IMG/VR virus record: IMGVR_UViG_3300031976_000853
Coordinates: 1-44,175 of that record
Strand: one strand, 5' to 3'
Origin: a virus
Length of the DNA stretch: 44,175 nucleotides
Under the pieces are notes generated by a model that saw nothing but the letters and a program-made list of their open reading frames with translations, was not told the origin of the DNA and did not search any database. The position numbers were made by a program, and so were the translations under genes. Position 1 is the stretch's first letter. Each line of letters starts with the position of its first letter. Shown in pieces: positions 36,045 through 43,010 of this stretch.

Positions 36045-36126
36045 CTCGTCGTCTCCCAATCGGCAGCGGCTTCGACTCGCTGCGGTGATCCAGAGGCTCA
36101 TGTGTCGCTCTGGGTATGATTGAGAG

Positions 36127-36154
36127 ATTATGCCAAGATATTTGTCATGGCAAG
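36127..36154 (-). promoter_or_regulatory. Leftward early promoter (PL-like)
   Basis: On the - strand, TTGCCA (36153-36148) and CATAAT (36132-36127) are separated by 15 nt (16 if the -35 is read as CTTGCC). The operator 36133-36145 fills the spacer, so a bound repressor would block the promoter. It drives the 28.4-36.0 kb operon. Confidence 0.6.
36133..36145. promoter_or_regulatory. Operator OL1-like
   Basis: CCAAGATATTTGT, a 13-bp partial palindrome of the CCAA-N5-TTTG form shared by five sites around the repressor gene. It lies between the -35 and -10 of the leftward promoter. Confidence 0.65.
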
Positions 36155-36163
36155 AACTATTTG

Positions 36164-36176
36164 CCAAATAATTTGG
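36164..36176. promoter_or_regulatory. Operator OL2-like
   Basis: CCAAATAATTTGG is a perfect 13-bp palindrome, 31 nt (about three turns) from the first site, just upstream of the leftward promoter. It is the best-formed copy of the set. Confidence 0.7.
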
Positions 36177-36271
36177 ATTAAGGATTTGGCGCTTGACGCA
36201 TGACCAGCACGTCATGCAACTTTCACAGACGAAGCGTTATTTGTGAGTGCATATGGACTGGATAGACGAAT

Positions 36272-36299
36272 TGAAAAAGGCCGCCCATGAGAGCGGCCT
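36272..36299 (-). terminator. Terminator of the repressor transcript
   Basis: On the - strand a 7-bp stem AGGCCGC/GCGGCCT (36299-36293 with 36284-36278) with an 8-nt loop is followed directly by TTTTTCAATT. It lies 28 nt after the repressor stop and would keep repressor transcription from entering the leftward operon. Confidence 0.75.
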
Positions 36300-36326
36300 A
36301 AGCATCGACTTCTTGGATTGGATTAC

Positions 36327-36593
36327 TCAGGACTTGTCGCGCCAGGCGGCCCGGAGTGTCATTGGCAGAGCTTCGTCTATGCCTTCGTATAAGAAGTCTA
36401 GCGATAGCCCGTATGTTTTGCGGATCGCCCGCGCACCGTCTATGGATAGTCGGTAGTCGCCACTCTCCCAATTTGAAAGCTGGGAGCGTTTCAGCCCAGC
36501 TTTTGCTGCATAATCCCGCTGGTCCATGCCTTCCAGGGCACGGTGCCAGCGGAGCCGTTCTGCGATGTCGCCAAAGGGTTTGTCTGTTTCCAT
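36327..36593 (-). CDS. Short Xre-type (CI-like) repressor
   Basis: An 88-aa protein made almost only of an HTH_3 domain: RLRWHRALEGMDQRDYAAKAGLKRSQLSNWESG, then YGLSLDFLYEG. There is no LexA/CI-type peptidase domain, so RecA-stimulated self-cleavage is not expected. It is transcribed away from the Cro-like gene and flanked by operators, as lambda cI is. Starts at 36593 or 36602 are both possible; neither has a good ribosome binding site, so a leaderless message may be used. Confidence 0.82.
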   Translation of the reverse strand: METDKPFGDIAERLRWHRALEGMDQRDYAAKAGLKRSQLSNWESGDYRLSIDGARAIRKTYGLSLDFLYEGIDEALPMTLRAAWRDKS

Positions 36594-36611
36594 GACCGGC
36601 ATGGTTGCAAA

Positions 36612-36624
36612 CCAAGAATTTTGA
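36612..36624. promoter_or_regulatory. Operator OR3-like
   Basis: CCAAGAATTTTGA, CCAA-N5-TTTG form, 10-19 nt before the repressor start, well placed for repressor self-control. Confidence 0.55.
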
Positions 36625-36631
36625 CGCAATC

Positions 36632-36644
36632 CGCAAACGTTTGG
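36632..36644. promoter_or_regulatory. Operator OR2-like
   Basis: CGCAAACGTTTGG, nearly palindromic around AAACGTTT. Twenty nt from OR3-like and 24 nt from OR1-like, giving a regular three-site array. Confidence 0.55.
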
Positions 36645-36645
36645 C

Positions 36646-36674
36646 TTGCCTTGTGCCAAGGAATTTGGCATGGT
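36646..36674 (+). promoter_or_regulatory. Rightward early promoter (PR-like)
   Basis: TTGCCT (36646-36651) and CATGGT (36669-36674) are separated by 17 nt and enclose operator 36656-36668, mirroring the leftward promoter. Transcription would start at about 36681, the A of the Cro-like ATG, implying a leaderless mRNA. The -10 is weak. Confidence 0.45.
36656..36668. promoter_or_regulatory. Operator OR1-like
   Basis: CCAAGGAATTTGG, extended to TGCCAA-N5-TTGGCA with perfect 6-bp arms. It lies in the spacer of the rightward promoter. Confidence 0.7.
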
Positions 36675-36680
36675 GGCGAT

Positions 36681-36965
36681 ATGCAACAGACAGCCTCCTT
36701 CATCATTGACGCATTGGGAGAGGAAACTCTCACCCGCGAGCTGGGTATCACCGAACGATCCCTGCGACATGCCAAATCCGCTGGCCAGTTTTCTGGCCTT
36801 TGGTTCGATGAGATCGAAGAACTATGCAAGCAACATGGGGTCTTCTGTTCTCGGTCGGCTTTCTACTGGAAGCGTCCCGACAAAAATGTTGGCGTCATGT
36901 CGGAATTTCAAGACGCCCCCGCACGAAAGGCTGACGTTAAGGTTAACCGGGCAGGTGCAAATTGA
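36681..36965 (+). CDS. Cro/CII-like HTH regulator
   Basis: A 94-aa protein starting MQQTASFIIDALGEETLTRE. An HTH is suggested by TLTRELGITERSLRHAKSAG, then SGLWFDEIEELCKQHG, and a basic tail. It is divergent from the repressor, with three operators in between, and is the first gene of the rightward operon, as cro is in lambda. No clear ribosome binding site is visible. CII-like activation is the alternative. Confidence 0.68.
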   Translation: MQQTASFIIDALGEETLTRELGITERSLRHAKSAGQFSGLWFDEIEELCKQHGVFCSRSAFYWKRPDKNVGVMSEFQDAPARKADVKVNRAGAN

Positions 36966-39204: not shown

Positions 39205-40366
39205 GGGCGAGATTGATTGCCTTTCGGTGATCCAGGCGGGCTTCCTTCGGGCGGTATCCATCCCTGACGGCTGGACCGCGCAAGGCAACAAGACGCAAGC
39301 CCTGATCGACGCTGAAACCGAGCTGCGCCGGTCGCCCTATGTGATCGTGGCCGGTGATGCGGACGAAGCCGGGGAAAGTCTGCCCCGCGCGGTCGCTAAT
39401 CTGCTGCGCGGCCATGATGTGCGGTTCGTGACGTGGCCCGAAGGATGCAAGGACGCCAATGACGTTCTGGTCGCCTTCGGTGAAGGCAAGCTGAGCGATT
39501 GCCTGCAAGCGGCGCAACGGCTGGATCCGCCCGGTGGCTTCATCACCTCCTTGATCGACCTGCCCCCCATGTCGCGCCGTCGCGTCCTTCGGACTGGCAT
39601 TGAATGGCTGGACGGTCGGGTAGCGTTTGAGCTTGGGGCAATGTCTGTCGGCACCGGCACCCCCGGCGCGGGCAAGTCCACCATGACCACGTTCATCGCC
39701 CATCACGTCGCCAAGCATGAGCGGATCCGCGTCGGGATGATGAGCTTCGAGACGCACCCTCACCGCACCCGCGATCATCTGTGCCGCCTGTCCATCGGCA
39801 AGCCGTTCGATGAGATCGACAGCGTGCAGGCCGCGCGGTTCTTCGATGAGACGGGCGATCTGTTCCGCATCGTGCATCGGACCTTCGATGACGTGGCGGG
39901 CCATAACCTCGGCTGGCTGGAAAGCATGATCTACACCTTGGCCGTCCGTGACGAATGCAAGTGGATCATCATCGACCCTTGGAACGAGCTGGAACACATG
40001 CCGGACAAGGGCGAGAGCCTGACCAACTACATCAACTTCGCTTTGCAGCGGATCCGGCAGCTTGCCGAGTCGCTGGAGGTTCACATCACAGTCATCGCGC
40101 ATCCCAAGAAGATGGACTTCAGCCGCGATAACCGTCCGCCCTTTGGTTACGACATCGCAGACAGCGCGTCGTTCGCCAACAAGCCTTCGCTCGGATTTTC
40201 GGTCCACCAGAACGTGACCGAGGAAGGCATCGCCTACAGCCAGTTGTTCACGTGGAAGGTCCGCGACACCCAGCTTTACGGGATCGAGAAGGGCTTCACC
40301 GACTGCCGGTTCGACAAATTCACCATGAGCTATTCCCGCCTAGACCCAATGGAGGCCCGCGCATGA
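38939..40366 (+). CDS. TOPRIM primase/replicative helicase
   Basis: A 475-aa protein of the T7 gp4/Twinkle type. TOPRIM residues lie in VVITEGEIDCLSV (about 83-95) and VIVAGDADEAGE (about 135-146). The RecA/DnaB-like helicase follows: Walker A GTPGAGKST (about 240), MMSFETHPHRTRD, Walker B WIIIDPWNEL (about 341) and TVIAHPKK (about 385). GGGGAGG gives best spacing to the second of the two adjacent ATG codons. The zinc domain is encoded separately upstream. It unwinds DNA at the fork and makes primers. Confidence 0.9.
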   Translation: MMTGDPIKWLETDRGLDGALLAAMGIQRDPKDRLGPNTLAFPYVKSGKTYAAKMRTVDKRFTSTQGVSRGLYNIDALTKDLDRPVVITEGEIDCLSVIQAGFLRAVSIPDGWTAQGNKTQALIDAETELRRSPYVIVAGDADEAGESLPRAVANLLRGHDVRFVTWPEGCKDANDVLVAFGEGKLSDCLQAAQRLDPPGGFITSLIDLPPMSRRRVLRTGIEWLDGRVAFELGAMSVGTGTPGAGKSTMTTFIAHHVAKHERIRVGMMSFETHPHRTRDHLCRLSIGKPFDEIDSVQAARFFDETGDLFRIVHRTFDDVAGHNLGWLESMIYTLAVRDECKWIIIDPWNELEHMPDKGESLTNYINFALQRIRQLAESLEVHITVIAHPKKMDFSRDNRPPFGYDIADSASFANKPSLGFSVHQNVTEEGIAYSQLFTWKVRDTQLYGIEKGFTDCRFDKFTMSYSRLDPMEARA

Positions 40367-41214
40367 CCATCATCAAGGAAGAACGCATCGGCGGACAGAG
40401 GCTGATTTTGGGCGATTGCTTGGAGGTGATGCCGCTGCTGGGCCGGTTCGATGCGGTGGTGACGTCTCCGCCTTATGACAAAATGAGGGATTATGGAGAG
40501 GGCTTTTCCGGGGTTGATTGCCTTTCGGTAATTCGCACCATTGCTGCGCTGCTTTCTAACGGTGGGGTCTGCGTCTGGAATGTGGCCGACCAAACAGTTG
40601 AAGGATCAGAAACAGGTTCATCCTTTCGACAGGCGCTTGCCGCTATCGACGCAGGGCTTCGTTTGCACGACACGATGATTTATGAGCGCGCACAGGCATT
40701 TGGCGGAAGTTCTAAAGCGTATCTGCACGCCTTCGAATATATGTTCATATTCTCAAACGGGACGCCTCGAAAATTCAATCCATTACGCGACCGTAAAAAT
40801 GCAAGGCCGGGCGTGGAAAGCTCAACTAAAGGCGGAAGGCGGAGAGATGGGGCTATCCCGGATCGACACCGGAAGGAAACAGCAGAATTCGGAAAGAGGA
40901 CTAATATCTGGCGCTACGGCGTGGGTGGTTCAAACTTCGATCATCCGGCGGTTATGCCTTACCAGATGGCAGAAGACCACGTTTCGAGCTGGTCCGATGC
41001 CTCAGACACCATCCTCGACCCCTTCATGGGCAGCGGCACCACGTTGGTCGCCTGCCAGAAGCTAGGCCGTCAGGGCACGGGAATAGAGCTTGACCCCGAG
41101 TATTTCCAGATCGCCTGCCGTCGCGTGGATGAAGCCACCCGCCAGCCGGATTTATTCGTCGCCCCTGCCGCCCCCGCCCCCGTCCAGACTGCAATGTTCG
41201 GAGATCCCGCATGA
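40363..41214 (+). CDS. DNA methyltransferase, amino-methyl type (TSPPY)
   Basis: A 283-aa beta-class enzyme with catalytic TSPPY (34-38) near the N-terminus and the SAM loop DPFMGSGTT (219-227) near the C-terminus. TSPPY suggests N4-cytosine, though N6-adenine cannot be excluded. No restriction partner is adjacent, so self-protection is likely. The central 40.48-40.93 kb part, the target recognition region, uses AT-rich and rare codons (TTA, ATA, AGA, AGG) unlike its two ends. Confidence 0.88.
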   Translation: MTIIKEERIGGQRLILGDCLEVMPLLGRFDAVVTSPPYDKMRDYGEGFSGVDCLSVIRTIAALLSNGGVCVWNVADQTVEGSETGSSFRQALAAIDAGLRLHDTMIYERAQAFGGSSKAYLHAFEYMFIFSNGTPRKFNPLRDRKNARPGVESSTKGGRRRDGAIPDRHRKETAEFGKRTNIWRYGVGGSNFDHPAVMPYQMAEDHVSSWSDASDTILDPFMGSGTTLVACQKLGRQGTGIELDPEYFQIACRRVDEATRQPDLFVAPAAPAPVQTAMFGDPA

Positions 41215-41866: not shown

Positions 41867-42315
41867 ACATCATCGCCCCCGTCTTTGCACCGCAGTTCCG
41901 CCAGCCCATGCCCGCCGATCTGCAAGACATCATCCGCGAGAAAATGATGGCGACCCTGCCGCCGCGCCCCAAGCATCACAAGGGCTACGACAAGGGTCTG
42001 AAGCGCCGCCAGGAACTGACCCCGCAGGCCGTGTCGCTTCGGTCGATGGGGATGCCCCTGAACGAGATCGCAGCCATCCTGAAGTGCAGCAAGACGCAGC
42101 TGGACCGGATCATGGCGGACTACCGCGCCAGCATGGAGGACAAGGGTGAGGCTCTGAGCTTCTCGCTTCGCAGCAACCCATGCTCCTGCGACGGGGTCAC
42201 GTATCCCAGCATGGCGAAAGCGGCGACTGCCTTCGGCGTCCATAAGTCCACGATCAAGCGATACATCGATGACCACGGCAGCCTTGAGGGCTTTTCACGG
42301 AGGGCCACCGCATGA
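41863..42315 (+). CDS. HTH protein with NUMOD1-like C-terminal module
   Basis: A 150-aa protein. The central part holds a resolvase/sigma-like HTH (GMPLNEIAAILKCSKTQLDRIM). The C-terminal part (CDGVTYPSMAKAATAFGVHK, then STIKRYIDDHGSLEGF) is a further copy of the module in the preceding gene. The N-terminus (MNIIAPVFAPQFRQP) is unstructured. A late-gene or replication regulator is plausible. Confidence 0.65.
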   Translation: MNIIAPVFAPQFRQPMPADLQDIIREKMMATLPPRPKHHKGYDKGLKRRQELTPQAVSLRSMGMPLNEIAAILKCSKTQLDRIMADYRASMEDKGEALSFSLRSNPCSCDGVTYPSMAKAATAFGVHKSTIKRYIDDHGSLEGFSRRATA

Positions 42316-43010
42316 AGGTGCTCGACCTGTTCAGCGGCATAGGCGGCATGAGCCTCGGCTTAGAACGCGCAGGCATGGAAACCGTCGCGTTCTGCGAGAT
42401 CGAAGAATTCCCGCGCCGTGTGCTGGCGCATCATTGGCCAGGAGTGCCCGTTCATGGCGATATTACCACCGCTCGATTTGATGGACCCGTGGACCTGGTT
42501 ACGGCGGGCTTTCCCTGTCAGGACATCTCACTCGCTGGAAAGGGTGCCGGACTTGCCGGAACCCGTTCGGGCCTGTTCTGGCATATCCTTCGAACCGTTC
42601 GCATGGTGGGACGCCCCCAACTGCTGCTGGAGAACGTGGCAGCGTTGCTTGATCGAGGGATGGGCGCGGTGGTCGGAGCCTTGGCCCAGGTCAGGTATGA
42701 CGCGGAATGGCATTGCATACCGGCGTCCGCCCTTGGTGCCCCGCACGGCAGGGACCGGCTCTGGATTGTTGCCCACCCCATCGGGGACGAGCAATCACGG
42801 GAAGAACCATGTGTCAGGGCGTTTGGACGAATGGGGCGGATCGAGCAATCGATGGCGTGGAACCGAGATTGGGAAGGTACACTCGCCGAGTTTCGAAGGC
42901 TGGATGATGGGCTTCCCCGCTCGGTGGCATCAACTGACGGATATCGAAACGCCGTAGTTCCGCAGATCCCCGAAATGATCGGACGTCAACTGATGGAGGC
43001 CGCAGCATGA
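42312..43010 (+). CDS. DNA cytosine-5 methyltransferase (Dcm-like)
   Basis: A 232-aa enzyme: DLFSGIGG (5-12, SAM), GFPCQD with catalytic C69, ENV (107-109), HGRDRLW (145-151) and a motif X variant DGYRNAVVPQ, where the usual G directly before NAVVPQ is R. The target recognition region is very short, as in phage solitary enzymes. It probably protects phage DNA from host restriction. ATGA junctions occur on both sides. Confidence 0.88.
   Translation: MKVLDLFSGIGGMSLGLERAGMETVAFCEIEEFPRRVLAHHWPGVPVHGDITTARFDGPVDLVTAGFPCQDISLAGKGAGLAGTRSGLFWHILRTVRMVGRPQLLLENVAALLDRGMGAVVGALAQVRYDAEWHCIPASALGAPHGRDRLWIVAHPIGDEQSREEPCVRAFGRMGRIEQSMAWNRDWEGTLAEFRRLDDGLPRSVASTDGYRNAVVPQIPEMIGRQLMEAAA

Follow-up and report, generated by a model that had tools for sequence, protein, structure and literature searches.

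The window analysed here, the whole 44,175-nucleotide stretch of IMG/VR virus record IMGVR_UViG_3300031976_000853, comes from a phage whose host group is Rhodobacter-type bacteria, and it carries a gene for an 88-aa HTH repressor on the minus strand with a small divergent gene on the plus strand, at the positions given for them in the initial annotation (Table 1). The repressor matches Pfam HTH_3 (E=9e-11), and both sequence and fold place it in the HTH_3/XRE family; its AF2 model has a pLDDT of 93, with helix 3 formed by residues 36-44. HTH_3 was the only Pfam domain found in the protein, with no peptidase S24 domain, and RecA-stimulated self-cleavage is therefore unlikely. Induction may need an antirepressor, by analogy with the Gifsy phages, where induction proceeds in that way (PMC3121763). 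A search of the DNA for LexA control of such an antirepressor returned 44 matches to GTTC-N7-GTTC at one mismatch or fewer, vs 32 expected, and no clear candidate promoter; no antirepressor was found.

The divergent gene codes for a protein that we describe as Cro-like. Neither the protein of the window nor its family profile had a sequence match in Pfam, PHROG or PDB, and its relatives gave weak, mostly unnamed sequence-family matches only. The core of its AF2 model has a pLDDT above 90, and the top Foldseek match of the model was Xfaso 1 Cro (3bd1), with a probability of 0.89 but a weak E-value of 0.6. Further along, the rightward arm of the window contains DNA methyltransferase genes at 40357-41214 and 42312-43010 (N6/N4-type, PF01555; PHROG 363-type).

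Table 1. Features of the putative immunity region, in positions of the window; dyad mismatches are counted over 12 bases and matrix ranks over 44,159 positions.
Feature	Coordinates	Strand	Dyad mismatches	Matrix rank (bits)	Description
PL promoter (predicted)	36125..36153	-			TTGCCA (36153-36148), 17-bp OL1, TAATCT (36130-36125)
OL1	36131..36147		1	1 (24.7)	TGCCAAGATATTTGTCA; occupies the 17-bp PL spacer
OL2	36162..36178		2	3 (22.6)	TGCCAAATAATTTGGAT; 31 bp from OL1
Terminator-like hairpin and T-run	36270..36299	-			Just 3' of the repressor stop codon; consensus scan only
Repressor	36327..36593	-			88 aa, single-domain HTH; upstream ATG at 36602 possible
OR3	36610..36626		4	5 (13.2)	Imperfect dyad AACCAAGAATTTTGACG
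OR2 half-site	36641..36646				TTGGCT; one good half only
PR promoter (predicted)	36646..36674	+			TTGCCT (36646-36651), then OR1; possible -10 CATGGT (36669-36674)
OR1	36654..36670		0	2 (22.9)	Perfect 17-bp dyad TGCCAAGGAATTTGGCA
Cro-like regulator	36681..36965	+			94 aa; divergent from repressor; conserved family in relatives
Probable further operator	36878..36894			4 (18.2)	CGACAAAAATGTTGGCG; 3' part of Cro-like gene

Five copies of a 13-bp operator, CCAA-N5-TTTG, had been annotated around these genes. The five positions hold real DNA words, which read directly as CCAAGATATTTGT (36133), CCAAATAATTTGG (36164), CCAAGAATTTTGA (36612), CGCAAACGTTTGG (36632) and CCAAGGAATTTGG (36656), but the 13-bp spelling has no match on either strand of the whole window. 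A 12-bp form, CCAA-N4-TTTG, fits four of the five sites and matches elsewhere too. The operator unit is instead a 17-bp dyad, TGCCAA-N5-TTGGCA, centred on one base pair, from which OR1, OL1 and OL2 depart least, while the word at 36630-36646 departs at four of 12 bases, as does OR3. Allowing up to two mismatches, the dyad has six matches in the window against 2.3 expected, so that mismatch counting alone is only weakly significant.

A weight matrix was trained only on the operators of five other phages (L009, L014, L015, L050 and L032), with the window left out. Its five best positions all fall within 36131-36894, with no genome-wide spread of operator-like sites, and the best score in each of 20 first-order Markov copies of the genome had a mean of 12.1 and a maximum of 18.0 bits. 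The score of OR3 is within reach of the Markov copies and is thus unremarkable alone; its support is its conserved position. With a score of -1.5 and rank 155, the word at 36630 is not a full operator. Four of the five annotated copies are therefore among the top five matrix positions, the copy at 36632 is reduced to a half-site, and the site at 36878 had been missed. A third OL site at 36178 was ruled out by a matrix score of -23.

Relatives of the repressor were collected first as eight from viral contigs, and then as more from viral contigs and from genomes that are mostly of Rhodobacteraceae. A common anatomy was observed in 34 of 41 non-redundant core loci, consisting of an HTH-only repressor, mostly of 88-95 aa, a divergent Cro-like gene, OR1 and OR3, and an OL pair beyond the repressor gene, the two members being 31 bp apart in most relatives that have one. 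A search for OR1 plus an OL pair that relied on DNA symmetry and recurrence only, with protein information left out, gave 27/41 loci a score of at least 27, a value that none of 164 Markov controls reached, and the window scored 30. OR1 stands directly 3' of an invariant CTTG, part of a TTGAC-like -35, in 34/34 loci, and the divergent gene usually has its start codon 10-11 bp past OR1. The distance between OR1 and OR3 is 43-44 bp in 33/34 loci, which puts OR3 beside the repressor start; in the window OR3 is poor (8/12 dyad matches) and lies upstream of, and adjoins, the possible repressor ATG at 36602. Family-wide, the position 24 bp from OR1 matches the dyad at 4.5/6 bases in its left half and 1.2/6 in its right half. 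On the -35 side of PR, this OR2 half-site is conserved at that fixed offset, and its sequence changes with the operator class of the phage that carries it (0/5000 shuffles).

Four repressor homologues (L039, L049, L052 and L080) have no recognisable operators, so some members of the family act otherwise or sit in remnants, and these four are possibly cellular or remnant. In a distant repressor group (L059-L064), ATCCAC-N5-GTGGAT was seen in the same OL/OR places in several loci. The same divergent layout, with another repressor type, was also seen in the distant relatives L086, L087 and L088 (around 1900-2500 of each locus), and dyads such as ATACGAAAATTTCGTAT are present upstream of the Cro-like gene in L086 and L088, and also beyond the repressor in L086.

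A scan with the sigma70 consensus found no promoters, and they were placed by family alignment instead. Across the family, TTGnca and TAnnnT are separated by 17 bp, a spacer that OL1 occupies exactly, and the abutment of -35, operator and -10 at PL recurs in the OL-bearing relatives, with TTG in 25-28 of 29 followed by TA...T. The boxes of PL and PR abut the operators throughout the family. The annotated location of the sites at 36133 and 36656 (dyads starting at 36131 and 36654), inside the spacers of promoters, is confirmed. For PR, conservation of the -10 across the family is too low for a firm assignment; the Cro ATG lies about 7 nt past the possible -10, and the mRNA is possibly leaderless. 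Inside the Cro-like gene, the site at 36878 is a probable further operator, since sites are found at or near the equivalent position in L009, L029, L050 and L012, and intragenic Cro sites with at least 10/12 matches occur in 4/34 loci against a null mean of 0.17. The same gene contains a dyad-like word, TGCCAAATCCGCTGGCC, at 36770-36786 that has counterparts in L009 and L050; it may function as a weak operator or may be conserved as coding sequence.

The region thus has a repressor gene and a divergent Cro-like gene with shared candidate operators between them, and candidate operators that overlap the sequence-predicted PL and PR, as expected of a lambdoid immunity region, while three full operators at each of OR and OL were not found, OR2 being a half-site and OL having no third site. 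The annotated CI/Cro-type arrangement, with operators at the leftward promoter and between the repressor and the divergent Cro-like gene, is the same in more than 30 phages. The further statement that the layout equals OL/OR of lambda holds for the general arrangement, but not for the two OL sites, the OR2 half-site and a repressor that lacks a C-terminal domain for self-cleavage, dimerisation and cooperativity.

Taken together, our results make it highly probable that this is the immunity switch of a temperate phage, working like OL/OR of lambda, with its specificity in repressor residues 40, 41 and 47. During lysogeny the 88-aa repressor would bind as a dimer at OL1/OL2 and OR1 and would block RNA polymerase at PL and PR, whose spacers contain operators. 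At a high repressor level OR3, before the repressor's own gene, would also be occupied and its synthesis limited. After infection, the divergent Cro-like protein would act on the same sites and direct the phage to lytic growth. Residues 40 and 41, in the recognition helix, and residue 47, just after it, would read half-site bases 3, 4 and 6, and relatives in which these residues changed together with the operators would form a set of predicted heteroimmune phages.

The half-sites of the family fall into classes, TGCCAA (the window), TGACAA, TGCCAT, TGCTAA, TGCGAA, TGTCAA, TACCAA and TGCCAG, to which the distant relatives add ATCCAC (several of L059-L064) and a TACGAA type (L086, L088). Base 4 follows repressor residue 41 in 34 loci with no exception (N with C in 25/25, L with T in 8/8 and Q with G in 1/1). 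A at base 3 goes with N40 in 7/7, and T at base 6 with Q47 in 9/9; the exceptions to the residue-40 rule are L033, which has N40 with C at base 3, and L024. For this set the operator starts of L020, L042 and L030 were placed by hand, as was the half-site consensus of L025 and L030. The association is strongest between base 4 and residue 41 (z=18), followed by base 3 and residue 40 (z=12) and base 6 and residue 47 (z=9). By parsimony each base changed 5-7 times, so the base-residue pairs arose several times. Two loci outside the statistics, L031 (P. sulfuroxidans) and L046, have L41 and TGCTAA at OR1, as predicted.

Correlations of this kind could come from the shared ancestry of immunity cassettes and not from contacts, with specificity determined elsewhere, for example at the dimer interface. 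Other repressor columns do correlate with operator class (L68, I51, A32), and the specificity of Cluster A mycobacteriophage repressors is influenced by their C terminus too (PMC6550527). We consider this explanation unlikely, because residues 41, 40 and 47 each outrank all other variable columns (60 in total) for their own base, and because simulations that include ancestry, on a tree from which the recognition region was excluded, reached the observed association in 0/3000 runs for each pair. In addition, residues 40 and 41 are in helix 3 of the AF2 model, with residue 47 just past it, and a residue outside the recognition helix is also used for an inner base in the 933W repressor model (PMC3317979). 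Direct reading of the operator by these three residues is the explanation that we retain.

Paracoccus phage Shpa (KR072689), which shares an ssb/nuclease segment with the window (80.6%), has a gene (gp41) homologous to the one for the Cro-like protein. Its locus (L084, 3249-3480) keeps OL1, OL2, OR1 and the Cro gene, with TGCTAAGCCAGTTAGCA and AGCTAAGATATTTAGCT 31 bp apart, and TTGGCTTGACAGA, then TGCTAACTGAGTTAGCA; OL1 and OR1 are perfect. The Shpa record yielded no repressor homologue, an empty result that alone is little proof, and no OR3 is visible, with only about 100 bp between the OL pair and OR1. The phage forms clear plaques and no integrase was found by its authors, who suggested a lytic lifestyle from the absence of integrase and recombinase genes in a paper where the word "repressor" is not used (PMC5135824). 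Shpa probably derives from a temperate phage by natural deletion of the repressor, and the simplest reading of its operators is that they were kept after repressor loss because the Cro-like protein uses them. A single-protein scan for other relatives lacking a repressor returned Shpa itself and three distant relatives, all three with a repressor.

Residues T24, R26 and S33 of the Cro-like protein covary with operator bases as well (0-13/2000 with control for the tree), which suggests that both regulators probably read the same sites. Such covariation, together with operators kept in Shpa with no recognisable repressor, would also be expected if the sites belonged to the Cro-like protein (or to a host regulator) only and the 88-aa protein were an unrelated autoregulator. 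That reading seems very unlikely to us, since repressor residue 41 tracks base 4 over 34 loci above any Cro column, and a host regulator would not vary its site from phage to phage. Finally, that AT-rich intergenic DNA merely happened to contain CCAA and TTTG words, for which the unmatched literal consensus and the loose mismatch counts weakly above chance could be cited, has a negligible probability given genome ranks 1-5 for a matrix made from other phages, spacing and promoter abutment conserved in more than 30 phages, and the covariation. A repressor and a Cro-like protein acting on shared operators remains the reading that we adopt.

A broader proposal seems to us somewhat better than evenly supported, namely that this is a nearly digital natural code in which residues 40, 41 and 47 set bases 3, 4 and 6 and the Cro-like partner switches in step, that a few substitutions have repeatedly carried rhodobacterial phages from one immunity class to another, and that Shpa arose in nature from the TGCTAA class by deletion of the repressor and would be blocked only by lysogens of that class. 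With at least 34 natural loci of one geometry, in which the repressor and the Cro-like protein change along with the operator, heteroimmunity and HTH recognition become predictable and testable from sequence. For alphaproteobacteria the family also provides single-domain repressors that are compact and whose code can be read, and loss of the repressor would explain concretely why a sequenced phage, Shpa, forms clear plaques. Operators or a code for this repressor family are undescribed in the open-access literature that we found, and older subscription work was possibly missed.

In lambda, a repressor gene and a divergent Cro gene are accompanied by operators over PL and PR, which are 17-bp dyads centred on one base pair. 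The same divergent genes, operators over PL and PR and beside the repressor gene, and one-bp-centred dyads of 17 bp are present here. Unlike the 88-aa repressor, CI has a C-terminal domain, and lambda has three OL sites to the two found here; in our phage, moreover, OR2 is a half-site, operator sequence and spacing are other than in lambda, and a probable site lies inside the Cro gene. The repressor matches those of 434 (E=2e-4) and P22 (c2, E=8e-4) in sequence, aligned through the recognition helix, and its fold agrees with their domains (TMt about 0.85, rmsd 1.3). The half-site of the 434 repressor, ACAA, is contained in the TGACAA operator class of this family. Although the HTH fold is shared with 434 and P22 c2, here there is no C-terminal domain, 5 bp separate the half-sites and the recognition residues are others.

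In the 933W repressor model E51, which lies outside the recognition helix, specifies the near-centre base (position 6); this residue is comparable to residue 47 here, and neither system has an OL3 (PMC3317979), but 933W has another lambdoid repressor, host group and operator. The kind of switch described here is textbook. Divergent XRE-family regulators have been described in Paracoccus phages with an S24 domain in only one CI-like protein (Sci Rep 2019, PMC6536676), so that HTH-only CI-like repressors were already noted in Paracoccus hosts; operators of these CI/Cro-like regulators are unmentioned in the main text of that paper. In Cluster A mycobacteriophages, repressor and operator diverge together and give rise to heteroimmune groups (PMC6550527). 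This co-divergence is shared with the family described here, whereas the Cluster A repressors have a distinct C-terminal region and stoperators that are spread genome-wide, in contrast to the top matrix matches of our phage, which lie within 36131-36894.
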